Source: a virus
Reading direction: 5' to 3' (one strand)
Length of the DNA: 31,504 bases
Virus record (IMG/VR): IMGVR_UViG_3300042429_000192
Coordinates: 1-31,504 of that record
Shown here: positions 4,398 through 31,504 of the stretch, piece by piece
How the letters are laid out: every line of letters starts with the position of its first letter
Numbering within the stretch: position 1 is the first letter of the stretch
The notes under the pieces: model-generated
Database searches by the model: none
What the model saw: only the letters and a program-made list of their open reading frames with translations
What the model was told of the DNA's origin: nothing
Translations under genes and position numbers: made by a program

Positions 4398-7300
4398 TTA
4401 TTTAGCTTCTAATTGTTGTACTCGTGTTTCTAAACGTGCAATCTTTTCAGCTTGCGTTTCAAATTTGTAATCTAATTCCTGAATTGCTTTTACTGATGTT
4501 GCTGTGATAGCTTGATAATTTAAACCAATAAAATCATCTGTTTCAATATATGCTTGTGGAATGATATTTTTAATTTCCTGTGCAATAAAACCTAAATCCT
4601 TTTTATCACCTTCATTATCAATTTTTAAATTATATAATTGAGGATTTAACAATAAAATTTCAGCTAAACCATATTTAGATTTCTCAAAATTCTTTTTCTT
4701 ATTAACATCTGATAATGCAGTATATGCGCCATTACTTGGATTTATACTTGCAATATTACCAACTGCGCCATTAAATAAATATGGATTATTTCCTGCTGCG
4801 TACCATCCAAAAAAATTGCTTGAACTTCTATCACCGAAAAAGAATCCTGAACCACTTCCTGTTGTTCTTACACCTCCATTTATTGATAATTTATCTAAAA
4901 CAGATGTCGTGTTAATCATTACATTACCGTTTGCATCAATCCTCATTTTTTCCGATGGATTTACTGCGCCTGTACTAGTACCAAATGCTAAATAGGTGTT
5001 TCCACCTCCCGTGTGTTCTGCTGTAATAGATGAATAGTGATTATTATCACCGCCAATTAACAATACAGATGTACCCCCAGCTGAACCAGCTGTACCGTTT
5101 AACAATGCTAATTTTACATTTGCAATAGTTCCTCCAAATCCAGCACTTGGCTGAACGGTTCCAATTCCTACAATACCAGAATTTAAAATACAAAATATAT
5201 CAACATTGTCATTGTTATTAGTAATATGTAATGCATTACTTGAAGGACCTAATTTAATGTAAGAATTAGGTGCAAAACTTGCATATCTACCAATTTCCAA
5301 TTTTGCGTTATTATCATTTAAAATACTTATTCCGCCTGCGACAGATAATTTTCCGTATGTTCCCGTAGGCGTTGTCGTTCCAATGCCTACGTTGCCTGTG
5401 GGCGTAATTCGCATACGTTCGGATTGGCTACCTATTACTGTTGTTCCTGATGTAAATGCTATGCCATCATAACCGCCTAAATTTAAGGTATTTCCACTTG
5501 ATAATGAAGATGGTTGACCTCTCCAAATACCAACATTAATACTTGTGCTAAGACCATCCCCTAATGCTAAAGTTCCACTTGCTTGGTCAACAGAACTAAT
5601 TTTTAAAATAGTTGTTTGGCTTGCACCTGATATATGTAAAATATGTTGTGGAGAACTTGTTCCAATACCTACATTGCCTGATGTATTAATAACCATCCTA
5701 GCAGTATTATTTGTACCTAAAAATAATGGATGATTAGAAAATGTAAATAATGATGATGAACCAGCTGATTCATTTGATGATAAAAATGCCTTTACGGTAT
5801 TTGTATTAAAATGATAAAAAGAATATGAGGAACCACCAAATAATTCAATATGTTTACCAGCTAATGAATAAGTTTCAGGTGATGAAACCCCAATTCCTAT
5901 ATTTCCAGCGGATGTAATTCGCATACGTTCGGTTACAGATGTACCACTATTGCTTGCATTGGTAGAAAATATTAAATTAGATCCATCTAATCCATCTATT
6001 GATGCCCTTCTAATAGTAGTATTACCAAAGTTTATTCCTGAACCACTTGTGGAATCTGATATTACCTGAATTAATGAAAATCCACCTGAACCTGATTGTA
6101 ATGTTAAATACCTACCGCTTGAACCAAAACCGTATAAATCTGGTGTTATTGTTCCAATGCCAATAGATGAATTAGTTTCATAAATCAATGAATTTGAAAC
6201 GACTGATGTCCCTGTCCATTTAGGTAAATATCCCGATGTACCTGAACCTGTAACACCTAACGTTGCTGCATTTAAATAATTAACTACATCAATAATGTCA
6301 TTAACCCTTACACCCTCAGTTAAAACAATCGTTGTGCCATTTGTAGCTGTAAAATCAACACCTGTTAATCTTACACCATTTAGGAATACATCAACCAAAT
6401 TAGGTGTGTAACCACCTGTAATTGTAAATGTGGTTTGCCCTGCTGTTGCTGTAAATGTTGACACATTACGTGCCGAACTACCTGCTGAAACGGTCCAAGC
6501 ACGGTCCGCACTTAAATCGTATGTTGTCCCATTAATTGTTAATGTACGCGCCTGTGTTACAGGTGTGTAACCCAATGCTGTGGTAACATCTGTGCTTGTT
6601 AACGTAACAGCCCCTGTTCTTGTATTGAATGAACTAACACCAGCTGTGACCGTTCCCCATGATAATGATGAACCATCTGTGGTTAAATATTTACCTGCGT
6701 TACCTGTTTGCGTTGGGAATCCTGCCACAAACGTGTATGCATCATCCCAATTAGATTGCTTAACATTTGTTGGCAACGAATACCCTGATGCAAATGTAAT
6801 TCCTAATGTCCCCGATGTTGTTATCGGTGATCCTGAAATGGCAAAACCTGTTGGAACCGTTGCACTTACTGATGAAACAGATCCACCACCTTTATTATTG
6901 AATGTTGTCCAATCGCTTGCAGATAGCCATCCATTGTTTAAATCGCTGGCCTGCGACATTGAAATCGTATTAGTAAATTGATCCCAAATTAATGGATTTG
7001 TTGCAAAGAAAGTCCCCGGCGCTATGAATCCATCAGGATTTGTGGAATTATAAGGTACAAACCCTAATCCTGCAATAATTTGTCCACTTGTTGCTTTTGC
7101 CAAATACCCAAAATCATCAGCATAAACAATGCCATTTGTGATTTTAAATTGCTGTATGTCTTGGTTTTTATGCAGTCTTAAAACATTGTTAAAAGTCGAA
7201 CTATTGATCACAGAATGTGTGACATATCCACTAACTAAATTTGGTGTTATTCTGCCCGTTCCAAATACATATAATTCATCAGCTGAAAATGTTCCATTAA

Positions 7301-9122
7301 CTTGCAATTTGTAGGCAGATGTTGTTCCATTAATTACTAAATTAGTTCCATCCTGATATATTATTGAATCTGTTATTGAATCAACATCTGTTGCAATTGG
7401 GATATAATTTTCGGTCAATGAACCACTTATTGCAGGTGCGCCCAAAATTGTTTCAATATCTGCTTTTGTTCCTGCTCTTAAAACACCTGTGCTTGTTGTG
7501 CCAATTAATGTATTAGTAACTATTAATTGTTTTATGGTTCCATCATTAAACAAACGTAAACTTTGAATCCAATCTGTTCCATCATAAACGTTAAATGATA
7601 ATGAATCATCAAAAGTTTCAGCAATTATTTTTGAAAATGTATTTACATATAAATTGTCGGCTTTTAATTCACCAATTACGGTAAAATCATAAAATCCTGT
7701 TTCGCCATTTACTATAACTTTCCCATCCTCATCAACAAAAATTGGTGAATCAATATAAAAATCTGTGTCATCGTAAAATGGCAAATAACCCTGTGTGCCA
7801 ACATCTAATGCATCGACTGAATTGTCAACGTTGATCCGTATGCCTCTTGGCTTTGTCGTTACAGGTACGGTGTCCTCAGCATTTAAAATTGCAAGCAATG
7901 ATTTACCAACATCTGTCGCATTGATTGCTGAATAAATATTCTTATTTATCCACAGGCTTTCAACCTCATCATAAAACAAAACATCCTCATCTGTTTCATC
8001 TGTGATTTGAACATCGTGTAATTCATTTAATTCATCTACACCCTCAGATAAATAAACATAAATTTTACCATTATTTTGATGTGCATATAAAACGTATCCA
8101 ATTTGAACAGGATGCGTTTCAGGCTCAATGTTTGTTAATTGTCCTGCAACCGTTTCACTCAGCCAAAGGGCATCACCATCTGCCCAAGTTTCATCTTGCA
8201 AATCACCTGTTGTGTCTATATTTCTGACCTCACCAAATGATGTAACAAATCCCTCTTGATTATTAGTTATGTTTTCTGTAACAATACCTAATATTCCTGT
8301 ATGATTTACTTTTGAATCTGCTTGCGCTAATAATACAGCCAATCTTTGGCCCTGTGAACCACCTTCTGATTCGTTTCTAACTCTAACAACTTTGTATGCC
8401 GCCTCAGTTAAATTAGCACCTGTTTTATTTACAACCCTAACAACCTGCTCCTGTCCTAATTGTAAAGTAACATTACCACCTTTCAATTTTAAATCGACCG
8501 TACCATCAATATTATTCCATGACATTGTTCCAGCCGTTGTTGGAATTGATGTTGGTGCTAAATTGAATTGAATGAAATCAGAAATTAGGCCAAATGTGCC
8601 TAAATTTAAATTCTGTGTTGCACCTGTATACGGCACATAGCCTCCGCCTCCGCCTCCACCATTAATAATATTCCACCAAATCTTTTCAATTGATGTCAAT
8701 ACCGTATCAGCAGCTGTAACCGTTCCTGTAATTGGAACAAATCCTGTTAATGTTGTTGCAAGTACGCGGCCCGTTGTAAAATATAGCCTTGAACCTTCGG
8801 CAATTGCTGATGTTGTTGATCCAATTGCCAAATACAAACCATCTGCCTCTGTACGCGTTAAATATAATGCACTTGCGGCCGCAGCTGTCAAATATGAATT
8901 TGAATCTAGCGATCCATCGGCTTTTAAAAATTGGCTTGAACTGCCACCTGTAACTTTAAATATTGATGCGCGAATAAATCCATTATCATCTATGAAAATA
9001 CCTGTACCCTGACCAAAACCATCCGAAATTTGCTTTTCGCTTTCAGTTAGGATGTCATTGTCGATCATTTTCAACAATGCTTTGTAGGTTTCCGATACTA
9101 ATTTGCCCGTTAATGTTGCCAT
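4398..9122 (-). CDS. Large tail fibre with C-terminal S74 intramolecular chaperone
   Basis: A 1574-residue receptor-binding fibre candidate, the largest gene here. The N-terminal 200 residues include EADGLYLAIGS and a seven-glycine hinge before YVPYTGATQNLNLG, common in Bacteroidota phage fibres. The central part has phage-fibre repeats such as SFNTRTGAVTLTSTDV. From about residue 970 on there are repeated GN(V/I)GIG(T/V)(S/T)(S/T)P units. The last 106 residues form an S74 (endosialidase-type) chaperone: ALSDVNKKKN keeps the Ser and Lys expected for self-cleavage, followed by DLGFIAQEI and a terminal coiled coil. The chaperone would drive trimer folding and cleave itself off. Residue positions are approximate. 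Confidence 0.92.
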   Translation of the reverse strand: MATLTGKLVSETYKALLKMIDNDILTESEKQISDGFGQGTGIFIDDNGFIRASIFKVTGGSSSQFLKADGSLDSNSYLTAAAASALYLTRTEADGLYLAIGSTTSAIAEGSRLYFTTGRVLATTLTGFVPITGTVTAADTVLTSIEKIWWNIINGGGGGGGYVPYTGATQNLNLGTFGLISDFIQFNLAPTSIPTTAGTMSWNNIDGTVDLKLKGGNVTLQLGQEQVVRVVNKTGANLTEAAYKVVRVRNESEGGSQGQRLAVLLAQADSKVNHTGILGIVTENITNNQEGFVTSFGEVRNIDTTGDLQDETWADGDALWLSETVAGQLTNIEPETHPVQIGYVLYAHQNNGKIYVYLSEGVDELNELHDVQITDETDEDVLFYDEVESLWINKNIYSAINATDVGKSLLAILNAEDTVPVTTKPRGIRINVDNSVDALDVGTQGYLPFYDDTDFYIDSPIFVDEDGKVIVNGETGFYDFTVIGELKADNLYVNTFSKIIAETFDDSLSFNVYDGTDWIQSLRLFNDGTIKQLIVTNTLIGTTSTGVLRAGTKADIETILGAPAISGSLTENYIPIATDVDSITDSIIYQDGTNLVINGTTSAYKLQVNGTFSADELYVFGTGRITPNLVSGYVTHSVINSSTFNNVLRLHKNQDIQQFKITNGIVYADDFGYLAKATSGQIIAGLGFVPYNSTNPDGFIAPGTFFATNPLIWDQFTNTISMSQASDLNNGWLSASDWTTFNNKGGGSVSSVSATVPTGFAISGSPITTSGTLGITFASGYSLPTNVKQSNWDDAYTFVAGFPTQTGNAGKYLTTDGSSLSWGTVTAGVSSFNTRTGAVTLTSTDVTTALGYTPVTQARTLTINGTTYDLSADRAWTVSAGSSARNVSTFTATAGQTTFTITGGYTPNLVDVFLNGVRLTGVDFTATNGTTIVLTEGVRVNDIIDVVNYLNAATLGVTGSGTSGYLPKWTGTSVVSNSLIYETNSSIGIGTITPDLYGFGSSGRYLTLQSGSGGFSLIQVISDSTSGSGINFGNTTIRRASIDGLDGSNLIFSTNASNSGTSVTERMRITSAGNIGIGVSSPETYSLAGKHIELFGGSSYSFYHFNTNTVKAFLSSNESAGSSSLFTFSNHPLFLGTNNTARMVINTSGNVGIGTSSPQHILHISGASQTTILKISSVDQASGTLALGDGLSTSINVGIWRGQPSSLSSGNTLNLGGYDGIAFTSGTTVIGSQSERMRITPTGNVGIGTTTPTGTYGKLSVAGGISILNDNNAKLEIGRYASFAPNSYIKLGPSSNALHITNNNDNVDIFCILNSGIVGIGTVQPSAGFGGTIANVKLALLNGTAGSAGGTSVLLIGGDNNHYSSITAEHTGGGNTYLAFGTSTGAVNPSEKMRIDANGNVMINTTSVLDKLSINGGVRTTGSGSGFFFGDRSSSNFFGWYAAGNNPYLFNGAVGNIASINPSNGAYTALSDVNKKKNFEKSKYGLAEILLLNPQLYNLKIDNEGDKKDLGFIAQEIKNIIPQAYIETDDFIGLNYQAITATSVKAIQELDYKFETQAEKIARLETRVQQLEAK

Positions 9123-12372: not shown

Positions 12373-13569
12373 TTACGGTGTTTCTAATGCAGCCATATCA
12401 GTAGCAAAATCACCTGTAACAAATGCCAATGGAGCATAGTTTGTTAAAGCAATTCTTTCTACTAAACGAACCGTCACGAAACCATCGCGTACGTTTGTTC
12501 CATCCTCACGGAAGAACTCCAAGCTGATGTTCTCACGAACCCATAATTGAGTACCCATAGCAAAATTACCTACTAAGTAATCACCTGCTGGGATAGCTGT
12601 GTTAACAACAACAGGTACACCCATAAAGTTAGGCTGTAATCCCATGTACACTTGATCTTTCAAGTATTCGTTTGTTGTAGCTTTCAATAATAAGATTTTG
12701 TGGAAATCTGTTGGATTCAACATGATGTAATCAGGTGTGTAGTTAACCAATGCTAATTGATTGATTGCTACTACCAAAACATCAAATTGATTTGCTGCGT
12801 TTACAGCATCAGTAAATGCACCTGCTGCGAAAGCTGTTGCATCTGTGATGATACCTGACAAGTTTGGTGCAGTTCCGTTACCTGACAACAATTGAGTATC
12901 CTCAACGGTTAATAATTTCTCAGGTGCGCGAGCTGCAAGGTAAGATGTCAATTGAGGCGTATCAGCTAACATTTCCTCAGAAATACGGAAAAATGTACCG
13001 ATTTTACGAACGTTAGCATCGTATGCAGTTAAATCAAAATCTGATTGTCCTAATGTAGATCCTTGCGCTCTTGTCGCTGCTGCGTTGTCAAATGCTGATT
13101 CCTTAACAAAACGAACAACCTCAGATGATGTTGTACCTGTTGGCAACAATTGACGAACGTGTACAGGACGCGTTGGATCATACTTGATACCTGAAACGTA
13201 TTGTGCTGGGATAACTTCACCTGTAAAGCTATTTGCTACGGTCATGTCACCTGCCTTGATTTCAAATGATGCTGAACGTGATGTTCCGTTGATCATTCCC
13301 TCTAATGCACCTTTTTTGATTCCTTCAATCAATCCTGATTTGAAATCATGTCCTGATGCACCTGATGCCGTTTTCTTTGCTGCAACTTCTTGCGCATCGA
13401 TACGTGAATGAATATCGTTGAATTTAGCTTCTAAATTCTTGATTTCACCTTTTAATAACTCATCAGCTTTTCCGAAAGCTGATTCAACTGCTTGACCTTG
13501 CGCCTTCTCGATACGTGCATCGATCTGTGCTGAAATTTGGTCTAATTGGTTTTTAACTTCTAATTCCAT
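12373..13569 (-). CDS. Major capsid protein, HK97 fold
   Basis: A 398-residue HK97-type coat protein. Residues 1 to about 100 form a coiled-coil, scaffold-like delta domain (repeated charged helices), expected to be removed by the protease encoded just upstream. The mature part begins near the SASFEIKAGDMTVANSFTG region. It continues with IPAQYVSGI, RKIGTFFRISEEMLAD (E-loop/spine region), DYIMLNPTDFHKILLLK, GVPVVVNTAIPAGDYLVGNF and a terminal LVERIALTNYAPLAFV, all familiar family elements. It is followed by a strong terminator. Codon use looks tuned, with repeated preferred codons and fewer AT-rich runs than neighbours. Confidence 0.95.
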   Translation of the reverse strand: MELEVKNQLDQISAQIDARIEKAQGQAVESAFGKADELLKGEIKNLEAKFNDIHSRIDAQEVAAKKTASGASGHDFKSGLIEGIKKGALEGMINGTSRSASFEIKAGDMTVANSFTGEVIPAQYVSGIKYDPTRPVHVRQLLPTGTTSSEVVRFVKESAFDNAAATRAQGSTLGQSDFDLTAYDANVRKIGTFFRISEEMLADTPQLTSYLAARAPEKLLTVEDTQLLSGNGTAPNLSGIITDATAFAAGAFTDAVNAANQFDVLVVAINQLALVNYTPDYIMLNPTDFHKILLLKATTNEYLKDQVYMGLQPNFMGVPVVVNTAIPAGDYLVGNFAMGTQLWVRENISLEFFREDGTNVRDGFVTVRLVERIALTNYAPLAFVTGDFATDMAALETP

Positions 13570-13575
13570 TTTAGA

Positions 13576-14262
13576 TTATTTTAAATTTTTTAGTAAATAA
13601 TTAAATATTTCGGATGCCTCAGCCTTGTGATCTACTTGCGGCACGGTGACTTCCTCTGTCGGCCGTGTGCTTAATTCAACCAATAATGACTTCAACTTCA
13701 TCAACTCACCTTCAATTGCGTATCCAAGTTCATCAGATACGTTTTCTTTTTTAATCATTTTGGCCAAAACATCAAAACGTTTTGCCAATAGTTCTTGATC
13801 AATTTCTCCTTTAGCATCAGTAATTACCGCCATTGGATTTGCTGCCAAAGTAACACAGCTGATTTCATACAACTTTACTTCCTTCAACTCACGCACACCA
13901 TCCTGTCTGTAATTCTTTTGAATCGGCATAATGCCCACAGAATTTTCCGTGATCACACCGTTTTTCATTAACAACAAAATATCCTCACCCATACGTGTCA
14001 TTGGAATCTGTGCCACAAATGCCAAACCTTTTTGGTCCTCATACAATTCGTTGAACTTACCTAATGGCTGATCAATACGGTGCTGGTTTACATATCTTAC
14101 GCGTGACTTGTTTTCCAACAAAGTTTTCGTGTATGCACCCTGCATAATAATGTCATTGTCTGAATCGATATTGCCGAAATATGAACCGTATCCTTTTACG
14201 ATACCGTTAACCTCATCAATATCCTCTAAACTGCCGATGGATGCCTGCTTGTATAAAATCAT
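13576..14262 (-). CDS. Prohead protease, HK97/U35 (S78) type
   Basis: A 228-residue head maturation protease. Catalytic motifs are visible: RVRYVNQHRIDQPLGKF (nucleophile-activating His about residue 61), ITENSVGIMP (catalytic Ser) and LYEISCVTLAANPMA, the typical strand after it. The opening GIVKGYGSYFGNIDSDND is also family-like. It would cleave the delta domain of the capsid protein encoded immediately downstream, with a 6-base gap. The C-terminal 60 residues are helical and probably act in self-assembly. A promoter-like pair precedes it (14279-14312), separating it from the toxin-like module upstream. Confidence 0.92.
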   Translation of the reverse strand: MILYKQASIGSLEDIDEVNGIVKGYGSYFGNIDSDNDIIMQGAYTKTLLENKSRVRYVNQHRIDQPLGKFNELYEDQKGLAFVAQIPMTRMGEDILLLMKNGVITENSVGIMPIQKNYRQDGVRELKEVKLYEISCVTLAANPMAVITDAKGEIDQELLAKRFDVLAKMIKKENVSDELGYAIEGELMKLKSLLVELSTRPTEEVTVPQVDHKAEASEIFNYLLKNLK

Positions 14263-14278: not shown

Positions 14279-14312
14279 CAAAATTAATCAAATCACTAAT
14301 CAGAATACCAAA
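14279..14312 (-). promoter_or_regulatory. Promoter before protease and capsid genes
   Basis: Minus strand shows TTTG (14312-14309, itself the end of a TATATTTG), a 22-base spacer and TAATTTTG (14286-14279), about 17 bases before the protease ATG. This fits the TTG-N17-23-TAnnTTTG pattern of Flavobacterium. It lies in the only gap of the head operon other than the terminase-portal gap and directly follows the putative immunity gene. Confidence 0.45.
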
Positions 14313-14326
14313 TATAAAAATTAATT

Positions 14327-14527
14327 TTATTCATATTTAATCAATCCACCATCATCAACAGAATCATCATCATAAACATAAATGATTTTCCTGCCATTGG
14401 CATTTTTTAACATTTCAATCATTATTTCCATATCAACATTAAATAAATATTGTGTTGGATTTTTTGAATTTGGATGCAATGCCATATATTCAACAATTAA
14501 TCGATTAAATTCATCAATGATTTCCAT
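14327..14527 (-). CDS. Small acidic protein, candidate immunity partner of the MuF toxin
   Basis: A 66-residue orphan of no family I recognise, starting MEIIDEFNRLIVEYMALHPN with ATG one base after the MuF-metallopeptidase stop. It looks like two or three helices and a strand (RKIIYVYDDDS) with an acidic C-terminus (about 13 Asp/Glu overall). There is no signal peptide. Like the 3' part of the upstream gene it is very AT-rich (about 27% G+C by hand count over 14341-14520). It sits where head operons of related phages usually go straight from MuF to protease. A role as immunity protein binding the HExxH domain is inference from position, size and composition. Confidence 0.68.
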   Translation of the reverse strand: MEIIDEFNRLIVEYMALHPNSKNPTQYLFNVDMEIMIEMLKNANGRKIIYVYDDDSVDDGGLIKYE

Positions 14528-14528
14528 A

Positions 14529-16247
14529 TTATTTTATTATTGATTTAGCTATTAATTCATCTAACATTTTAATCATATTTTTATTCAAATCAGGAAATAA
14601 TGTTTCCATAAATGTATTTCCAACATATTTATTTTCAAATGAATGTGCCGTGTATTCCATAAAATTGGAATTTTGCCTAACTGAATAATATTCCTTGCCA
14701 TGGCCAAAACCATAAGTTCCATTTGTTAATGATTCAATTGTATCGGCTGTTGATGCTAATTGCTTTGTGTATTGCTTATCAGTTAAATTTGGAAATCTGT
14801 TTCTGTATTTTAACCAAAGTTTATTGTACAAATCTTGCTGATATGAAAATTCTGATGCAATTGATTCGTTTGCCCAAATAATATTTCTGCTTTCTACAAA
14901 TGATTTAGCAATTATCTCATTAACATTTGTTCTAGTAATCCAACCCTGTTGATAATGTATTGCATGTCCAAATTCGTGTGCCAATGTTTCTTTAATTGCT
15001 TCCCCATTGTAATACTTAACATTAACATGCACCTCATCTGATGTATGTATGTATTTTGATCCTTTTGTTTTTGCCGTTTGCTTTATTAATGTTGGCTTTT
15101 GCTTTAATAAACCCAAATAATCATCATTTATTTCTTCACCTTTTGGCACAATTTTATTCCAATTGTTTGGCCTCATTGATTCTTTATATGTATTGTCAAT
15201 TACCTGCTGTGCAACCTCGGCAACAATTGCCACATCAGTTATGATCGGTGCTTGTATTGCTGATTGTGCTGTCGCATCTGCCAATCCAAATCCAATATCG
15301 GTAATCTGATCCCCAATTGTTTGGGCCGATGGTTTAGGAAATGGCGCAACTGAACAACGGCAATTAATAACATTCCCTGCGGATCCTGCTGGATCACCTG
15401 CATGGTTTAATGATTCACCACCGACTAAAAACTTTTTATTAAATGGTACAATTTGACCTTGTGCAGCTTGATGTGCTGGCCTTACCCTTGCATCCCGACC
15501 TGCAATCCATTGTTTCATCATTTCGGATCCTGCAAATATATCAGATGCCGATGTCAATGTCGCATAGTTAGCCGCATTTGTTGATTCCGTGCGCACTAAT
15601 CTTTCGGATTGATAACGTGAATATCCTGCAAATTGGCCTTTTAATATTCTGCCTTTTGATTGTGATCCCTCCTTTTGAAAATCAGGATCTTTCATCAGCC
15701 GTGTAGTCACCGCAATTAATGTATTTTTAGCCGTGCCACTCACACTTGAAACGCGTTGACCTGCCACCTGATTACCTACAAATGAAAAACTTGCGGCCCA
15801 AATGGCCTGTTGATTAGGCAAATTCAATGCCTTTTTAATAAACTTATCAAAGTTTTTGGCATACCAATTGGCAAAATAAACTCCGATTTGCTCATACAGA
15901 TTCTCATACAGCTTTGTTAATTCTGATTCCTTAAAAAATACCTGTACATCTGCGCTGGATAATGCCCCCTGCCTGATAAACATAGCCACAGCCTCATCAT
16001 ATTGGCTGTTATAATACCGCTTAAATTTAGCTATTTGATTTCGTTCTGCACGTGTCAACTGCTTTTCAAACTCAACGGCCCACGTTTCTTTTACTGATTT
16101 TACCTGCACTTCCTGCTCCCATAGTGTATTGCACACAGCAACACGTTGATCAATGGTATTGAAATCCGCTTGAATATTTGGATCAATAACGCAACGACCA
16201 ATAAAATCTGTTCTATCCTCGGCAGGATTAGGTGCAGGTAATGGCAT
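14529..16247 (-). CDS. MuF head morphogenesis protein fused to HExxH metallopeptidase domain (polymorphic toxin-like)
   Basis: A 572-residue two-part protein. Residues 1-45 carry a phage head module with paired cysteines (DFIGRC, RVAVCNTLWEQE). Residues about 215-303 are a Phage_Mu_F domain: RLVRTESTNAANYATLTSAS, KQWIAGRDARVRPAHQ and AGNVINCRCSVAPF. After a linker, residues about 355-572 form a different domain with TLAHEFGHAIHYQQG, giving the zinc motif H424-E-F-G-H428, and a later NFMEYTAHSFE (E531) as a plausible third ligand. MuF proteins are minor capsid components delivered with or near DNA, and MuF-linked C-terminal toxins are known in phages. The 3' part is far more AT-rich than the MuF core. 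Toxin activity and target are inferred. Confidence 0.88.
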   Translation of the reverse strand: MPLPAPNPAEDRTDFIGRCVIDPNIQADFNTIDQRVAVCNTLWEQEVQVKSVKETWAVEFEKQLTRAERNQIAKFKRYYNSQYDEAVAMFIRQGALSSADVQVFFKESELTKLYENLYEQIGVYFANWYAKNFDKFIKKALNLPNQQAIWAASFSFVGNQVAGQRVSSVSGTAKNTLIAVTTRLMKDPDFQKEGSQSKGRILKGQFAGYSRYQSERLVRTESTNAANYATLTSASDIFAGSEMMKQWIAGRDARVRPAHQAAQGQIVPFNKKFLVGGESLNHAGDPAGSAGNVINCRCSVAPFPKPSAQTIGDQITDIGFGLADATAQSAIQAPIITDVAIVAEVAQQVIDNTYKESMRPNNWNKIVPKGEEINDDYLGLLKQKPTLIKQTAKTKGSKYIHTSDEVHVNVKYYNGEAIKETLAHEFGHAIHYQQGWITRTNVNEIIAKSFVESRNIIWANESIASEFSYQQDLYNKLWLKYRNRFPNLTDKQYTKQLASTADTIESLTNGTYGFGHGKEYYSVRQNSNFMEYTAHSFENKYVGNTFMETLFPDLNKNMIKMLDELIAKSIIK

Positions 16248-16249
16248 AT

Positions 16250-17638
16250 TTATTTGGTTTCAAACCCAAAATCAATATCAAATGATTTAGGATTCTCTAA
16301 TGAATCAATTGACACGTTTGCTGGTGCTAAATTAGCTGGTATGAAATATTCATCCATAAACAAATTTTGATCATCACGGCCATAATTCATTGCATCACGT
16401 TTTTCGTTTGGTGTAACCCACCATGCGGCAGCCATCTGTCCAACTATTTTATCCACTTCCTCTTGCAACTCCGATACAGCTGTAAAATCAAAATCCAAAT
16501 ATAAATCATCGCCATAAGCAGGAACCAACCAACGATTTAACTCATCACGAATTTTAATCAACTCAGGAATTACAGCATTTTGATACAATGCTTTTTTAGC
16601 CTCCTTCATGTTGTTGTACGATGATGAATCTGTATTGTTAAGCAATTGTACAGGAATGTTGTAAATGTTGCAAAGGTCCTTAATTGATGCGTTGTATTGC
16701 TCGATCAATGCCAAATCCGCAGCTGGCAAACCAAAGTTTACCCACTCTAATTCCTTTGGTGTGATGATAATATCACCAGCATTATTGGCCCCTTGGTATT
16801 GCTTTCTGAATTTGTCTTTCATTGCCTGCGCTTGCACCTCAGATAATGTTCCATCCTTAGAAACCAACATACCACGTGATGTTTGGTTTTGTAGGTATTT
16901 AACACCTGTGATCGTGGCCTCATTGTTGGCTGTCAATACTCGCAATCCTGCGCGCAAAGGTGATTGGCCATATAGGTTTGCACCTGCTGAATTAAACTCA
17001 GGATTAAAATCTTTGATGTGGCATACACGTTCAGGATCCATTGTTGCCAAACTATTGTATTGCAATCTGTACCCAGCAACAGGTTTCATATATCCATTTG
17101 ATAGGATTTCAACAACCTGTGATGGCAACACATACAATTCAGTAAATTTTTTGACATTTGGTCCCGTTTCAGGTGACAAACCTAAGATAAATCGATCCCC
17201 TGTTAGCTTACCAAATGCTATTAAATCAGTCATGAATGTTGCATACGACTGCTCAGGATTTGGCCTGTTCAATAGTTTTACCAATGGATTAGTATCATCA
17301 ACTGCCTCGAATGCCTGTTTGCGTACAATGTTTGCTTTTAATATTGCAGATCCATCCAAATGTGTGGATGTCATGCCCTTGTATTGCTTTGCAGCTGTTG
17401 CAGATTTAATCTGATAAACCTGAAATGGAACCGTGCTGGCTGCCTTAGCAATTAGGTTCACAATTGAGTAAACCGTAGCATTTCGCTGGTATCCATCACG
17501 AATAAATGTTTCATTATTATCAGGATTGAAAATAATTCCCTGTCCTAACCATTGGAACATTAATTTGTTGTAATCTGCCGTTGTGCCTGATAATGCTTTG
17601 ATGATGCCCGATCGCACCTGATCTATTATTGATGCCAT
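16250..17638 (-). CDS. Portal protein, HK97 type
   Basis: A 462-residue portal that forms the dodecameric DNA entry ring and docks the terminase. Family-like segments include VYSIVNLIAKAASTVPFQVY, NPLVKLLNRPNPEQSYATFM, FGKLTGDRFIL, the central SPLRAGLRVLTANNEAT and NQTSRGMLVS, and PVQLLNNTDSSSYNNMKEAK (a typical wing/stem segment). I use ATG at 17638 (MASIIDQVRSG); a TTG at 17662 would add eight residues but lies in the leader next to a hairpin. The next gene, the MuF protein, starts 3 bases after the stop, as in other phages where portal and MuF are paired. Confidence 0.93.
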   Translation of the reverse strand: MASIIDQVRSGIIKALSGTTADYNKLMFQWLGQGIIFNPDNNETFIRDGYQRNATVYSIVNLIAKAASTVPFQVYQIKSATAAKQYKGMTSTHLDGSAILKANIVRKQAFEAVDDTNPLVKLLNRPNPEQSYATFMTDLIAFGKLTGDRFILGLSPETGPNVKKFTELYVLPSQVVEILSNGYMKPVAGYRLQYNSLATMDPERVCHIKDFNPEFNSAGANLYGQSPLRAGLRVLTANNEATITGVKYLQNQTSRGMLVSKDGTLSEVQAQAMKDKFRKQYQGANNAGDIIITPKELEWVNFGLPAADLALIEQYNASIKDLCNIYNIPVQLLNNTDSSSYNNMKEAKKALYQNAVIPELIKIRDELNRWLVPAYGDDLYLDFDFTAVSELQEEVDKIVGQMAAAWWVTPNEKRDAMNYGRDDQNLFMDEYFIPANLAPANVSIDSLENPKSFDIDFGFETK

Positions 17639-17660
17639 TATTTGCCTATAATTTTTTTCC

Positions 17661-17686
17661 AAAAATAACCATTAATTTGATGGTTA
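17661..17686 (-). terminator. Hairpin between large terminase and portal
   Basis: A 7-bp inverted repeat, TAACCAT and ATGGTTA, with a 7-base loop, followed on the minus strand by TTTTTGG. The short AT-rich stem would be a weak terminator. It lies in the 75-base gap after the terminase gene and could reduce read-through into structural genes or mark a new transcription unit. Confidence 0.4.
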
Positions 17687-19069: not shown

Positions 19070-19442
19070 TTTCAAGTATTTGCGTAATCTTATTTTTAGA
19101 TTCCTCAGACATTTTACCAGCTATTTCCAAACCTCCATCGTGTTTGATCTCAGTCCGCTCAATATAATCGCGCTTTTTACCTTTGGTTTTTAGGTAAAAT
19201 ATGGTGGCTGTCGTGTTGCCTTCTTTGATTTGCTTATGCAATTGTGATTCTGCAAAGTCCAAAACCATGTCAGAAAGTTCATCAATCTGCTTTTTGTATT
19301 CAGGATCCGTGGTCATCCAAAGGTAATGCAAGCTGCGCGGTATGTCCACGATCTTACACGCAGATGTAACTATACCCAACGTTTTTTCCATCGCATCAAT
19401 CATGCGTTTCTTTTGCAGCTTTGTATTGTCCTTTGTTCTCAT
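19059..19442 (-). CDS. Terminase small subunit
   Basis: A 127-residue DNA-binding packaging subunit. The N-terminal half has the helix-turn-helix pattern KKRMIDAMEKTLGIVTSACK with VDIPRSLHYLWMTTDPEYKK, a frequent terS signature. The middle helices (ELSDMVLDFAESQLHKQI, then TATIFYLKTKGKKRDYIERT) are equally typical, and the C-terminus would contact the large subunit. It overlaps the ParB-like gene upstream by four bases (ATGA) and the large terminase downstream by 11 bases, so the three are translated as a unit. Confidence 0.9.
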   Translation of the reverse strand: MRTKDNTKLQKKRMIDAMEKTLGIVTSACKIVDIPRSLHYLWMTTDPEYKKQIDELSDMVLDFAESQLHKQIKEGNTTATIFYLKTKGKKRDYIERTEIKHDGGLEIAGKMSEESKNKITQILENEY

Positions 19443-19942
19443 TTCTTACAATAGCAGTTCAATCCCTGCTCAATTAATAAATTATATTGCTTTTCGCGAT
19501 CATCAGCATCGGCACATTTTACTTCAATAATAAACGATTCCTTTGGATCTGTTGGCTCCTTTTCATCCTCTAATGGCGCAAATACAGGAATGTCCACACC
19601 CCAATCAATTAAATCATTTTCATCAAAACAATTGGCCAAAATATCATAATCCCACTCACCGAATCCAACATTATCTTTTATGATAAACTCAGTCTGTTGA
19701 TGTGCTGTCAAATGTCCAGCTTTAATCACAGGCACACGTTCGATTCCAGCTTCTTTGCAGGCTCTCAATCTCATGTTACCGCCCAATACCACACAATTGT
19801 CATCAACAATTATTGGTCTAAGCTGTAACATTTCAGGAAATTCCTTAATTGATTTGACTAATTTCTTGAATTTATCATCCCTAATAAACCGTGGATTGTT
19901 CGGATGTGGTATTAACAATTTGATGTTTATTTCCTCAATCAT
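19439..19942 (-). CDS. ParB/sulfiredoxin-domain protein without methylase
   Basis: A 167-residue protein. Residues 1 to about 75 form a ParB-type domain: IKLLIPHPNNPRFIRDDK, LRPIIVDDNCVVLGGNMRLR (the GG-MR core) and GIERVPVIKA. Residues 85-115 (FIIKDNVGFGEWDYDILANC, then LIDWGVDIP) match the linker that in many phage proteins precedes a DNA methyltransferase, but that domain is missing. The protein ends with a short domain (ESFIIEVKCADADDREKQYN). ParB-like phage proteins act as nucleases, CTP-binding clamps or modification partners. Here it is coupled to the small terminase, so a packaging-related role is plausible but unproven. Confidence 0.8.
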   Translation of the reverse strand: MIEEINIKLLIPHPNNPRFIRDDKFKKLVKSIKEFPEMLQLRPIIVDDNCVVLGGNMRLRACKEAGIERVPVIKAGHLTAHQQTEFIIKDNVGFGEWDYDILANCFDENDLIDWGVDIPVFAPLEDEKEPTDPKESFIIEVKCADADDREKQYNLLIEQGLNCYCKK

Positions 19943-26683: not shown

Positions 26684-27688
26684 TTAAACGATTTTTCCGT
26701 CTTTTATTTGATAATTTGTCACCTTACTTTTGCCATTTTCTATTTCAACCATGGCAAACCCGTGATTGTGTTGGCTGAATGGCATATACTTTGGCGATAA
26801 TGCTGTCAAACATCCTGTTGAATAGGTATTAATAAACTCCTTAAAACCTGTTTTTCTTTGCGTTGTTGATGTTCTGTGAACATGGCCAATTAATGTGTTA
26901 CACAGGACCTTATTAAATAGGTTTTGGCTTGGATTTGCACCGCCTCCACCGTACAATTCATGACCGTGTAGGACCAACAGATCACCCATTTCCATACCTT
27001 GCCATGTGTCAACCATAATAAACCCTAATTTGTCCAAATGAAAAAACACTTCAAATTGTAGATCATGTATCTGTGCAAATTCCTCAGCTTGAACAGCCAG
27101 CGATCTCGCATACCTATCCTCATGGTTTCCCATTTTGTAGTAAATCGGAATGCTTGGAAATATATCACGCAGCTTGCGCACAAAATCACGGCACAATTCC
27201 ACCTCACGTGGAAAATCCCTCAGATCTTTGTCTTTTTCATGGCGCGAAATTGAATAAAAATCGAATATGTCGCCATTTAGATACAGGCAATCGATTCGCT
27301 GATCACGTAAATGCTTAATTGCGCAGATCAATGCCTCCATGGAATGAAACGGAAAATGAATGTCCGACATGATCCCAACCTTTTTTATTTTCTCAGGCAA
27401 TTTGTGCGATAAATAATCCTTGCCAATTGATGGCTGTATTCCAAAATCAGTTATTTCCGAAATATTAAATTCCTTTATTTCTATTTTTTGAGGTGCATCA
27501 TTTTTGATTAGAAATTCCGTTCGCGCTTTCATCGTAATTCCGTTTTTAATCATTACATCGCGCAATCCTTTGGGCAATGTGTAGCCATAAATTAAATGAA
27601 ATTCAGCATAAAAAGCCTTTAATGGCAGCTGTGATGAATAATAATGATTGCGAATTGATTCAATTTTTTGTTCGTATTCAGCAGTCAT
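26684..27688 (-). CDS. Calcineurin-like metallophosphoesterase
   Basis: A 334-residue protein. The metallophosphatase core shows all metal-site motifs: GIMSDIHFPFH (D-x-H), YLNGDIFDFYS (GD-D), YKMGNHEDRYA (GNHE), VLHGHEL and LIGHVHRTS (GH-H). About 100 residues precede the core; the first 60 (IRNHYYSSQLPLKAFYAEFH, then LPKGLRDVMIKNG) look like a small helix-turn-helix domain. Phage enzymes of this class may act on DNA ends, nucleotides or cyclic nucleotide signals; the substrate cannot be read here. It is transcribed alone, between a promoter (27707-27734) and a terminator (26619-26643). Confidence 0.9.
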   Translation of the reverse strand: MTAEYEQKIESIRNHYYSSQLPLKAFYAEFHLIYGYTLPKGLRDVMIKNGITMKARTEFLIKNDAPQKIEIKEFNISEITDFGIQPSIGKDYLSHKLPEKIKKVGIMSDIHFPFHSMEALICAIKHLRDQRIDCLYLNGDIFDFYSISRHEKDKDLRDFPREVELCRDFVRKLRDIFPSIPIYYKMGNHEDRYARSLAVQAEEFAQIHDLQFEVFFHLDKLGFIMVDTWQGMEMGDLLVLHGHELYGGGGANPSQNLFNKVLCNTLIGHVHRTSTTQRKTGFKEFINTYSTGCLTALSPKYMPFSQHNHGFAMVEIENGKSKVTNYQIKDGKIV

Positions 27689-27856: not shown

Positions 27857-29779
27857 CTATTCTTGATAACTTAAACGATACGTTGATGCAACATCTGTGT
27901 AATTATTAGGCACGTGGCAATTAATAGAATAAACATCTGATTTTACCATAAATTTCATATTATCCATGATTGCTGAATCTGTTTCGGCAAATGTATTAAA
28001 TTTAAAATACACCTTATTCATCATGCTCAAAACCAAATACTGACTTGCTGATGATAGATCACCCTCGTATGTTTTGCAATACTCACGGAAATCATTTAAC
28101 CTTTGCTGTGTGACAATTTCCTCAAGAAACCTTCCTGTGTTATCCTGTGCGCGCCTAAATGCTGGTAAACCAATAAATGCACCCCAAAAAACTATCTCGC
28201 CAACATTAGCAACATAAATATTATCATGCTCCAATATATCAGATGCAATAAATGTTCCTAATTGTTCACGAATAGCATAGATTTCATTGTACCTGTTTAT
28301 TTCACTATTAATATTTCGAATTGCAAAATTATCAATAAATGTTGCCGTGTAGTTAAATGGATCAAATAAATAAGGTGCGCCAATTGCTATTTCAAGTTGA
28401 CCATTATTGGGTGCCGCTTTTGTTGTTACTCTAAATGATTCAAATGTACCATCCCCAATTACCTTAAATTCATTCCAAACTATAACAGGTGAATTTGCCC
28501 AATTTCCATCAGAACCAACATAATAATATAAGCCATCCAAAAATATACGTATGTAATAAGGTATTCTGTTATCTGATCCCCCTTTGCTTATATTAACTGA
28601 AACTAATAATTGATATTGGTCCCCTTGAACTGCGTTTGATGCATCAATTGAAAATACCTTAGTATCATAAACAGGTGTTCCACCTGTTACATAATCCGTA
28701 AATCGTAATGCCTTACGACCTGCAAATGATTGATCAGAAATAGTATATCCACCAACTATTCCCATATTCTCCAAATCAAATTCAAATGATGCATTTAAAT
28801 TGCTGTCAATTCGTTTTTGTTTAATATTTAGGATTTCTTGGTACCTGCGCAATGGCCGTTTAATCAATCGCGTTAAATTGTTATTGATTGCTTTAAAAAA
28901 TTGTGGCACAATTCTGATGTAATTATCAGTGATTCCACCTGTGTTGGCCCCAGCTGCATTGTAAATTTCAAATTTAATATCCTCAGATCCGCTGTTCAAA
29001 TAACCTTGCTTTGCTGCTAGTATTCCAGCACCCGATAATGCACCTGACTGAATGCCTGAAATTACTCGCTGATCACCATAGCTGGATGCATTGGCAATTA
29101 TCCACCTGCCGTAAGCCTGATAAATTTTGCAATTAAATGCAATTAAAATTGATCTTAAAACTTTCTTTGCATTCTGAATAATATAATTATCCTGAAAAAC
29201 ACCTTCTTTGTAAATACTTACATCATCAAAAACGTTATTCCAAATTGATTCAGTTGATATTCTAATGTCATTGCTAATCCATATATCAAATCCTAATCCA
29301 ATTTTCTCTAAATTTTTATAGATAAATTTCCACAATTTTGGATCAGCTTCACCAACTGCTGGAAACCATGAATCAAATGCCTCTAATGATCCTAAACCAT
29401 CATTGGCATTTACCGTTAATTTATATGGTGTTGATGTTATCGCCTCGGAATAAATGTCATTTGCAATCCAGCCATTCCAATATAATGTGTAAACATCAGG
29501 TGCAGATTCGTAGTAAACTTTTACAGAATATTCTTGCTCATTAAAAAGATAAAATTGATCATACGTGACATCATCTGTTACCCATAAATTTAGCTGGCAT
29601 TGTGATCCAATTAATGGTTCATAAAAATCATCATCTGCCTTCCACTCAATTATTACAGGTTCATCAGTTCCAATCATTGGCAATACCGCACCACCATAAT
29701 CTTTTTTCAATATTTCAACCCTGCGTTTTCGTGATCTAACATCCGAAAAATCCAACCGATATTTTACACCGTATGCCAT
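27857..29779 (-). CDS. Distal tail/baseplate protein
   Basis: A 640-residue structural protein directly after the tape measure gene (TAATG-type junction), the usual position of distal tail or tail-tip hub proteins. The N-terminus (MAYGVKYRLDFSDVRSRKRR, IGTDEPVIIEWKADDDFYEP) and the segment VLRSILIAFNCKIYQAYGRW-type are patterns I associate with Bacteroidota phage tail-tip proteins. Residues about 335-495 (ASFEFDLENMGIVGGY ... FIDNFAIRN) look like an inserted jelly-roll carbohydrate-binding-type domain, with an ADN-like closing strand. It probably initiates tail assembly and contacts receptor-binding fibres. Domain calls are by pattern only. Confidence 0.8.
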   Translation of the reverse strand: MAYGVKYRLDFSDVRSRKRRVEILKKDYGGAVLPMIGTDEPVIIEWKADDDFYEPLIGSQCQLNLWVTDDVTYDQFYLFNEQEYSVKVYYESAPDVYTLYWNGWIANDIYSEAITSTPYKLTVNANDGLGSLEAFDSWFPAVGEADPKLWKFIYKNLEKIGLGFDIWISNDIRISTESIWNNVFDDVSIYKEGVFQDNYIIQNAKKVLRSILIAFNCKIYQAYGRWIIANASSYGDQRVISGIQSGALSGAGILAAKQGYLNSGSEDIKFEIYNAAGANTGGITDNYIRIVPQFFKAINNNLTRLIKRPLRRYQEILNIKQKRIDSNLNASFEFDLENMGIVGGYTISDQSFAGRKALRFTDYVTGGTPVYDTKVFSIDASNAVQGDQYQLLVSVNISKGGSDNRIPYYIRIFLDGLYYYVGSDGNWANSPVIVWNEFKVIGDGTFESFRVTTKAAPNNGQLEIAIGAPYLFDPFNYTATFIDNFAIRNINSEINRYNEIYAIREQLGTFIASDILEHDNIYVANVGEIVFWGAFIGLPAFRRAQDNTGRFLEEIVTQQRLNDFREYCKTYEGDLSSASQYLVLSMMNKVYFKFNTFAETDSAIMDNMKFMVKSDVYSINCHVPNNYTDVASTYRLSYQE

Positions 29780-31504
29780 TATCCTAGTCGTTTATTTTGC
29801 TTTTCTGCTCTTTGTAATACCAACAATAAATCCTGTCCGCTTACCTTTGTTTCCAAGGTAAATGCGCCACCGCCTCCACCTGTGTCTAACATTCCCTGTA
29901 ATTTGTTCAATGGTGCAATTACCTCAGGATTTGATCGTGCGCCTGCGTACTCACCCATGATTCCCATTGTTGGACCGCTAACGATACCACCTGCTGCAAA
30001 CTTTGGAATTGATGCAAATGATGACAATACACCACCAATTGCCATGGCCATAAATGCAGGCTGTGTAAATACAGCTGCCGGTCCTGTTGCTGATGCTGAT
30101 TTTGTTGCATTAGCTGTGGCCGTTGCCATTGCCAATGCTTTTTGCATGATAATTTCTTTGATCACATATTGCGCTAATTGCAATGTTGTTTGAGCCATTC
30201 CTTGTAAAAATCTACCCAAACCTGTTGTTGCTTCACCCATTGAAGACATAATGCTTTGACCTAAAACTCCAAATGCACCTGAAACAGCCTCAGCCATTGT
30301 TTGGCCTTTAACCATTATTAAATCAAATTCCTGTTGTTTCAATGCCAAATCCTCAGCAATTATTCTTGAACTTTCTTGGATGCTTTCATTCATTATTTGA
30401 AAAGGTGTTTTAATCTTTTCAGTAACCTCAGCTACATCATAACCTAATGCCTTTAATGGATCACCTAAAGATGGCCAACGTAATTCTAGAAATTCGTTTT
30501 TTAAAGCTAAAGTTTCTTTTCTTGCGTCAGCAACTTTTTCTGCTAATGATTGAATTGATGCAGCTAATCCATATTGTTCTTTAATGGCATCACCATTTCC
30601 ACCATCACCTTTTGGCATTAAATCAACACCACCTCCTGTTGGATCAATACCTGCTGTTGCAGTTGTAGTTTTTAATAGTTGCCTATTTGCTACAATAAAT
30701 GCCTTTGCTGCTGCAATTTTATCCTCATAAGTTTTGGCAGTATTTCGATCCTGATTTGTTTGTGATTTATAAATTGCATCCTGTTGCGCAGCAGATTTTC
30801 TTAATACTTCATAGGCTGTTATCGATGCATATAACTCTTTATTTTTTGACCTTATTGCATTTGCATTTGTTTTTTCTTCATCACTTAATTTTGCTAATGC
30901 ATCATTTGCCCCACTTAATGCTGATTGTTGTTCTAATGCCGCACCAGCCATTGCCGAAATAAGACCAATAATTCCTGCGGCTTTTATTGTTGTTCCTAAA
31001 TTAGCAAATGCAATACGTAATAATTTTACACCTGTAATTACTTTTGGTATTACCGTTCCAGCTAAATAAAGAAATGGCCCAGCTAAAGCTGCAATTCCTG
31101 CGGCACCTGTTATAAATAATTTTGTGGCTGCTGGTAATTCTTTTAAATAACTTAACATGCCATTTAAAGCATGTATTACTTTTGTGACAGCAGGTAAAAC
31201 AACTTGTCCAAATGTGACTCCAAGTTCCTTCATGGTTTCTTGGAATATGCGCATTTGATTGGCTGCTCCATCGCTTGTACGTGCAAAATCACCTTGTGCA
31301 TTTGTCGTGCTACTCATTACGTATTGATAACGTAACATGACTTTTTCACCCTGCGACATTGCCTCATATTTGGCCGTGATTCCCTTAGACAATGCAAATG
31401 CTTTTACATTGGCCTCAGTCATTACAATACCCAAACGTTTTAACGATTCTGTTTCACCTGTAAAAACTCCATTAAGGGCCGTTGTGACCTCCTCAATATT
31501 CATG
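29779..31504 (-). CDS. Tail tape measure protein, C-terminal part (begins at 585 across the junction)
   Basis: This frame holds most of the 714-residue tape measure protein. On the circle it follows base 1 at position 31338; bases 31339-31504 duplicate the left end. A hydrophobic region (about residues 265-330 of the full protein, ELPAATKLFITGAAGIAALA and following) is usual for tape measure proteins and may help DNA cross the inner membrane. Then come a long helical, alanine/lysine/glutamine-rich part and an alanine-rich stretch (ALAMATATANATKSASATG). The C-terminus has glycine-rich GGIVSGPTMGIMGEY and a terminal helix LLLVLQRAEKQNKRLG. It overlaps the distal tail gene start by one base. Confidence 0.93.
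   Translation of the reverse strand, partial: MNIEEVTTALNGVFTGETESLKRLGIVMTEANVKAFALSKGITAKYEAMSQGEKVMLRYQYVMSSTTNAQGDFARTSDGAANQMRIFQETMKELGVTFGQVVLPAVTKVIHALNGMLSYLKELPAATKLFITGAAGIAALAGPFLYLAGTVIPKVITGVKLLRIAFANLGTTIKAAGIIGLISAMAGAALEQQSALSGANDALAKLSDEEKTNANAIRSKNKELYASITAYEVLRKSAAQQDAIYKSQTNQDRNTAKTYEDKIAAAKAFIVANRQLLKTTTATAGIDPTGGGVDLMPKGDGGNGDAIKEQYGLAASIQSLAEKVADARKETLALKNEFLELRWPSLGDPLKALGYDVAEVTEKIKTPFQIMNESIQESSRIIAEDLALKQQEFDLIMVKGQTMAEAVSGAFGVLGQSIMSSMGEATTGLGRFLQGMAQTTLQLAQYVIKEIIMQKALAMATATANATKSASATGPAAVFTQPAFMAMAIGGVLSSFASIPKFAAGGIVSGPTMGIMGEYAGARSNPEVIAPLNKLQGMLDTGGGGGAFTLETKVSGQDLLLVLQRAEKQNKRLG
31339..31504. repeat. Terminal direct repeat, right copy (contig overlap)
   Basis: Identical to bases 1-166 except A at 31465 instead of C at 127. 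See the left copy; together they allow closure into a circle of about 31,338 bp. The silent difference may be a population variant or sequencing error. Confidence 0.93.

Follow-up and report, generated by a model that had tools for sequence, protein, structure and literature searches.

A MuF head protein with a zincin-like C-terminus and an adjacent small gene: a probable virion-borne toxin and antidote exchanged as one cassette

Here, we examine two adjacent genes in IMG/VR virus record IMGVR_UViG_3300042429_000192, whose 31,504 bases were analysed as a whole and are referred to as the window. The first encodes a MuF head protein of 572 residues with a C-terminal zincin-like domain (14529..16247, minus strand), and the second a protein of 66 residues, the predicted antidote (immunity) protein (14327..14527, minus strand), whose ATG lies one base past the MuF stop. 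These open reading frames (ORFs) and the single base between them are as described in an earlier note, which had proposed a virion-borne toxin and immunity pair from the sequence alone. On the minus strand of the window, the genes follow one another in the order terminase, portal, MuF, 66-residue gene, S78 prohead protease and capsid.

The N-terminal part of the MuF protein carries the Pfam domain Phage_Mu_F (PF04233, E 7.2e-9, over the cut-off) at residues 209-300 (15348..15623, minus strand), in agreement with the Mu F-type domain placed at about 215-303 in the earlier note. It stands right after the portal gene (16250..17662, minus strand; PF04860, E 3.5e-56), as in the MuF toxins already described, and the protein matches PHROG 2468 (head morphogenesis) with an E-value of 5.4e-33. 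Alignments with two further PHROG head families, 4728 and 115, extend to residue 566, so that extensions of this kind are evidently already present, unnamed, in known phage families.

The C-terminal domain, modelled with AlphaFold2 as residues 340-572 (14532..15230, minus strand; mean predicted local distance difference test score, pLDDT, 94.5; predicted template modelling score, pTM, 0.91), is predicted to adopt a zincin-like fold. Its HEFGH motif at residues 424-428 (14964..14978, minus strand), which would supply two zinc ligands and the catalytic glutamate, falls in helix 76-94 of the model (model numbering), and E531 (14655..14657, minus strand), the likely third ligand within NFMEYTAHSFE, in helix 188-202. 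Both had been pointed out in the earlier note, and in an alignment of 45 rows H424, E425, G427, H428, D502, G513, G515, H516, Y520, E531, A534, N544 and P552 are invariant, which argues that the HExxH motif is not a chance occurrence. Y520 (14688..14690, minus strand) is a residue that we take to be a candidate for the catalytic tyrosine of peptidases of the lethal factor and PPEP type.

Searches place the domain near known zincins only loosely. No Pfam family was matched over its cut-off, the best being SprT-like (E 0.0085); Peptidase_M90 was not listed for the domain, nor was ATLF (PF07737) for the window protein, and the relative L070 reached a sub-threshold 19.4 for ATLF against a cut-off of 27.4. 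The database search proposed in the earlier note thus gave no Pfam assignment and a weak link to anthrax lethal factor, the only match of a profile-to-PDB sequence search (E 0.009). Lethal factor also ranked first in a VIA-align 2 comparison of folds, with Z 9.1 (its residues 27-260; 177 residues aligned, root-mean-square deviation 4.5) and 8.8 (residues 571-776), followed by Certhrax (Z 8.4) and then PPEP-1, -2 and -3 (Z 6.6-8.0, 137-150 residues), where Z of 7-9 counts as moderate and, by the program's own warning, Z below 8 may reflect only a common arrangement. The model therefore points to a domain that is likely lethal-factor-like or PPEP-like, and we claim membership in neither group. 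A domain scan of viral contigs yielded 70 loci, and searches with the domain in phages and in plasmids were unproductive. Similarity to other polymorphic toxin classes is weak and lethal-factor-like, carriers of the domain beyond MuF proteins not having been sought systematically.

The 66-residue protein is acidic (13 D/E versus 6 K/R), as first noted; the label of orphan that went with this observation has to be dropped, as the protein belongs to a family, here called family A, of 34 aligned members of 58-71 residues that share a helical part, an NGREI-like strand and a DGG-strand end. Its model (pLDDT 91.8) has helices followed by two strands. No Pfam family reached the cut-off (best E 0.085), no PHROG lay below E 0.19 and nothing was found in NCBIfam or PADLOC; a search with the small protein in phages and a sequence search of the family against the PDB were likewise unproductive. 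The lack of a known family over the cut-off would suit a spurious frame that happens to follow the MuF gene. Against this stand the 34-row family, the constant position, the tree-corrected co-occurrence with the domain (see below) and a ratio of nonsynonymous to synonymous substitution rates (dN/dS) of 0.05-0.46 in all 14 pairs of relatives, chosen by hand, which indicates purifying selection. Given the dN/dS values and the family alignment, the gene is real, and the spurious frame, refuted by dN/dS and co-occurrence, keeps a negligible probability.

Evidence for a link between the domain and the small gene comes from their exchange. In a blastn comparison with the related locus L003, the window matches at 97.6% over 19200-15224 (alignment length 3978) and at 96.4% over 14286-9726 (alignment length 4564), with no alignment between these flanks; the unaligned stretch begins near MuF residue 342 and stops shortly ahead of the S78 gene. 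The gap (14287..15223, minus strand) therefore contains the C-terminal domain together with the small gene. The replacement block in L003 holds a Peptidase_M90-type domain (31.2 against a cut-off of 26.2) and an unrelated cysteine-rich gene of 64 residues. Members of this Cys-rich family (53-64 residues, CxxCKH...CxAFPxGIP) were seen at L003:6817-7008, L105:5564-5743 and eleven more loci.

A wider set was built from the best 80 of a larger number of loci in a scan with the MuF N-terminus, together with earlier loci, giving 111 distinct MuF proteins, of which 104 are intact at the 3' end and seven are not; loci of a sister clade that includes prophages (clade B) beyond L054, as well as L068 and L069, are excluded from it. 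Among the 104, family A genes accompany 36 of the 38 domain carriers, the other two being L051, which has an opposite-strand gene of another family (B1), and its near copy L052. Short MuF proteins, with no extension, number 52, and in none of them was a family A or Cys-rich gene present, the two families sought there. Where the extension is a different HExxH domain, the Cys-rich gene is found in 13 of 14 cases (12 by pattern, L095 by eye), and every extension with an intact 3' end in the set bears an HExxH. A small downstream ORF thus goes with an extension and is lacking behind short MuF genes, as in known MuF toxins, with L018 as an exception. The case that the earlier note held to be fatal to its proposal, related MuF proteins all sharing the domain without the small gene, is not what we see, as the 52 short proteins lack both the domain and a gene of the small families sought.

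These counts also bear on the possibility that the zincin processes phage proteins, in head maturation or in self-release of the MuF protein. Zincins have been proposed to process polyvalent proteins (PMC5512222). However, a separate S78 prohead protease follows the cassette as the next conserved gene (13576..14262, minus strand; PF04586, E 3.2e-25), the 52 of 104 intact MuF proteins that do without an extension have S78 starting at most 87 nucleotides (nt) away in 49 cases (the S78 motif was not found in the other three), and unrelated zincins replace one another. We reject a head maturation protease on the first two grounds and regard a processing role of any kind as very improbable.

On the best tree of 98 MuF N-termini (built by a quick method, with L044, L051 and L052 left out), the C-terminal type changes at least 30 times, and the domain and the family A gene are concordant in 16 of 16 independent contrasts across well-supported branches (sign test 3e-5). 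In this tree, L131 and L060 have identical trimmed N-terminal regions, and only L060 carries the domain and the small gene. The tree and the comparison with L003 thus both display a variable C-terminus on a conserved N-terminus, another trait of MuF toxins. Across 27 loci, distances between small proteins follow those between domains (r 0.79; partial 0.67 given the MuF part) and, more weakly, those between MuF parts (partial 0.43), both partial correlations exceeding permutations. Gain, loss and exchange affect domain and small gene jointly, as a single cassette, and the earlier suggestion to look for C-termini and small genes that vary together in relatives is borne out.

Beyond this set, loci up to L173 comprise 60 distinct domains at E 1e-10 or better, 58 of which are complete at the 3' end. 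Each of these 58 has a small gene next to it that belongs to one of three families, a count that is not fully independent, as the small-family models were built partly from these loci. Family A lies on the same strand in 35 cases, families B2 and B1 on the opposite strand in 15 and seven, and B1 on the same strand in one; the family A profile had no match below E 1e-3 away from a toxin in the loci collected at that stage. Two apparent gaps in this pattern proved wrong: at L045-L047, L053 and L054, a profile search found the gene overlapping the toxin end, and in clade B, where the small gene had seemed absent, another gene is present, which lies on the opposite strand at 22 of 23 domains. Clade B includes prophages on longer bacterial contigs: L172 (Barnesiella sp. 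WM24, 418 kb contig) shares its toxin frame with the 48.5 kb record L079, as does L171 (Wenyingzhuangia aestuarii, 125 kb contig) with L070. Two further arrangements were also seen. In Streptococcus phage Javan202, the minor capsid protein (L216:1873-3790) carries a remote form of the domain with HENGH (profile E 1.3e-9), and a 71-residue gene starts one base after its stop; in a human faecal phage scaffold, a zincin-bearing head-type ORF (L217:3001-3848) converges with an opposite-strand gene of 95 residues.

Placed on the opposite strand, the small gene would no longer depend on the late operon. Of 18 opposite-strand genes, six have a TAnnTTTG box in the 250 nt upstream, against 1.6 expected from letter shuffles, and the matches divide into five of six for B1 and one of 12 for B2, which is suggestive of an own promoter for B1 only. 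The placement also bears on an alternative role of the small protein, in which it would be no antidote and would help the bulky extension into the head as a loading chaperone or folding partner. Such a role would account for small families found only alongside an extension, for a start codon one base past the toxin stop and for a Cys-rich family that serves several zincin types. Yet co-translational loading would hardly lead one to expect the opposite strand, which is used at 22 of the 58 domains, L018 lacks a partner despite its extension, and one copy of the small gene occurs in a bacterial genome without the toxin; together these make a chaperone an improbable explanation.

The domain is rare in sampled genomes. 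Besides G002 and G001, the already known carriers on which sampling was centred, sampling added one clear domain match each: G109, a partial copy with an internal stop, among 395 genomes from the phylum of G002, and G593 among genomes from the order of G001. In the phylum scan, most of the matches listed near E 1e-4 were short ones over positions of about 38-86, on the HExxH segment, and were not counted. The toxin-less copy belongs to G049, a genome from the phylum of Barnesiella: a gene of 65 residues (L220:3616-3810) lies 2 kb from a tRNA-Arg gene, and a toxin of this type was not found in the 14 kb around it, on a contig that ends 3.6 kb to one side. Elsewhere in the G049 genome, the domain profile gave just a short match (E 2.3e-4). 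The neighbours of the gene are an XRE-M78 gene and one of 177 residues that looks PIN-like by eye and has no Pfam match. A second, weak match in the family of G049 (114 genomes; L221) looked like chance and was dropped.

Phage head proteins with toxin domains form a recognised class, as the earlier note had stated. Jamet et al. (2017; PMC5576092) describe MuF polymorphic toxins with an N-terminal MuF domain, a variable C-terminal domain and a small ORF behind, the last found behind 89.4% of 191 toxin genes compared to 25.5% of 952 short ones, and with a metallopeptidase domain in 20% of the 191. MuF toxins with a metallopeptidase domain and a small downstream ORF are therefore already known in general. 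That account reports the toxins only from temperate phages, chiefly of Firmicutes, its own test of temperate association for toxin genes in phages giving p = 0.055. The present set differs from the toxins described there in having domain and antidote families without a Pfam model among the members scanned, carriers that include phages without detectable integration genes, a sister clade in which the small gene mostly runs in the opposite direction, and cassette swaps demonstrated at the DNA level.

The closest precedents in function are Bxa, a MuF toxin of a Bacteroides stercoris prophage that is antibacterial and neutralised by adjacent immunity proteins, and Apk2, likewise a MuF toxin with adjacent immunity (PMC11699363). 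Their toxin domains, in contrast to that of the window, are an ADP-ribosyltransferase and an alarmone synthetase; the same report adds glutamine deaminases, and a word search of its text returned neither zinc nor metalloprotease. The N-termini of the clade B proteins L064 and L071 match PHROG 16625, which is named Bxa ADP-ribosyl transferase. Another relative by type is the Tox-ALF metallopeptidase of Zhang et al. (2012; PMC3482391), a lethal-factor-like HExxH toxin domain with weak sequence similarity to ours, whose row in that survey lists delivery by the Photorhabdus virulence cassette (PVC) and the type II secretion system (T2SS) with Imm-SuFu immunity, and no MuF. Finally, the modelled domain resembles the catalytic-domain fold of PPEP-1/Zmp1, PPEP-2 and PPEP-3 within the limits of the scores above. 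The PPEPs are secreted single-domain enzymes and are not known to have a MuF part or a partner gene.

Taken together, the en bloc exchange, the adjacency at all 58 domains, the absence from short MuF genes, the 16 contrasts, the predicted fold with its invariant residues, the toxin-less copy in G049 and the Bxa precedent make it probable that the window pair is a virion-borne MuF polymorphic toxin with its antidote. What the earlier note observed is thus confirmed, and its interpretation is supported. By analogy with Bxa and Apk2, the MuF part would seat the protein in the head near the portal. A few copies may exit from there together with the DNA, or be set free at lysis, and in the recipient cell the zincin would cleave a protein. 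In the producing cell, the 66-residue protein would bind the domain and hold it inactive until packaging; in clade B, an opposite-strand gene would let a lysogen protect itself while the late genes are off.

Several observations weigh against a toxin with its antidote. Neither model has a close structural neighbour, as Foldseek found none in the PDB at E 0.001 or better for the domain and none was found at that threshold for the fold of the small protein, and the best scores of the domain are the moderate ones given above. The Cys-rich partner occurs alongside zincins of at least four different signatures, a looser specificity than expected of a classic immunity protein. At L018:4983-6827, a MuF gene has a HELGH zincin extension with a small gene found on neither strand, the only such case among the extended MuF genes of the set whose ends are intact. 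A common origin of families A, B1 and B2 is not supported (hhalign probabilities of 0.6, 8.4 and 0.75%). Since the small protein remains correlated with the MuF part after allowing for the domain, shared descent plays some part as well. Lastly, a gene of the small family without a toxin is rare, with a single case among the 395 genomes sampled.

The chief competing explanation is an effector injected for anti-defence or takeover. The zincin would then cleave, early in infection, a host protein of defence or regulation without killing by itself, the small protein would be an inhibitor that shields the phage's own late proteins, and cassette swaps would track host targets. In favour of this view, among the polyvalent proteins that phages and mobile elements deliver, no domain is commoner than the zincin (PMC5512222), and in the clade of the window the small gene lies directly behind the head gene in the same orientation. 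Life style also enters here. Tyrosine integrase (PF00589) and resolvase (PF00239) matched none of 14 records, the window included, and the Mu transposase C domain (PF09299) was over the cut-off in none, its controls giving no match either; two sub-threshold matches were both in clade B records. This negative is weak evidence, as five of the 14 records are clade B, including the proviruses L070 and L079. With these domains not found in the window, lysogen competition is an unlikely use of the cassette there. On the other hand, the opposite-strand gene at nearly all clade B domains suits a protein that protects a lysogen more than one that protects assembly, and the toxin-less copy in a bacterial genome speaks against the effector as well, so that we consider it unlikely.

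The major capsid gene (12373..13569, minus strand; PF05065, E 1.1e-33) follows the prohead protease. A tape measure gene is split by the ends of the window into 195 residues at 1-585 and 574 residues at 29779-31503, in relatives being 774 residues in G745 and 693-850 in six others; the record is therefore probably a circularly permuted, nearly complete genome, short of only a few bases. A ParB-like gene (19439-19942; PHROG 620 and others) adjoins the terminase genes, and the window further encodes a metallo-phosphoesterase (26684-27688; PHROG 221, E 1e-38) and a tail fibre of 1574 residues with a C-terminal Peptidase_S74 chaperone domain (4398-9122).

A sister cassette occurs in cultured phages. 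A tblastn search with a Cys-rich gene led to Flavobacterium phages lotta8-1 and lotta8-2, and in lotta8-1, gp028 is a MuF protein with a HEFGH extension followed by the overlapping Cys-rich gp029. Phage pippi8-1, from the same host (Flavobacterium sp. LMO8), shares 99.1% identity over an alignment length of 2128 before the cassette and 99.7% over one of 1913 after it, in a comparison that covered this region of both genomes; in between, it has a different HEIGH extension and an unrelated 70-residue gene, gp029. MuF C-terminus and small gene are thus swapped en bloc (lotta8-1 L215:4250-5151, pippi8-1 L218:3626-4622) within DNA that is more than 99% identical. This cassette is a sister type, different from the window's own domain. 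Lysogeny genes are reported absent from mumin-, pippi- and tantphages (PMC7077304), and the record of lotta8-1 files it in Pippivirus; the genus of lotta8-1 and pippi8-1 is reported to be exclusively lytic (PMC7077304). A further, tentative and rather doubtful idea is that phages that only lyse carry swappable head-borne protease and antidote cassettes as weapons against other phages. A virion would inject the protease into a cell held by a competitor and stop it unless the matching antidote is made, and hosts acquiring the antidote gene alone would gain resistance.

The earlier note regarded the pairing and its immunity family as undescribed, which does not hold for the general class of MuF toxins with a small ORF (PMC5576092) and does hold, as far as the literature was searched, for the domain family and the antidote families found here. 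To the same extent, the opposite-strand arrangement, the evidence for en bloc exchange at the DNA level, the toxin-less bacterial copy and the occurrence in phages without detectable integration genes are new. Published work links MuF toxins to lysogeny. In the present set, cassettes of a predicted protease and antidote are swapped among phages in which no integration genes were detected, which bears on the question of why toxins are built into phage heads. The lotta8-1 and pippi8-1 pair permits a direct question, setting the small gene of one phage against the virions of the other. The small families may supply new protein inhibitors of zinc proteases, and the families may help to annotate MuF extensions that are now labelled hypothetical.
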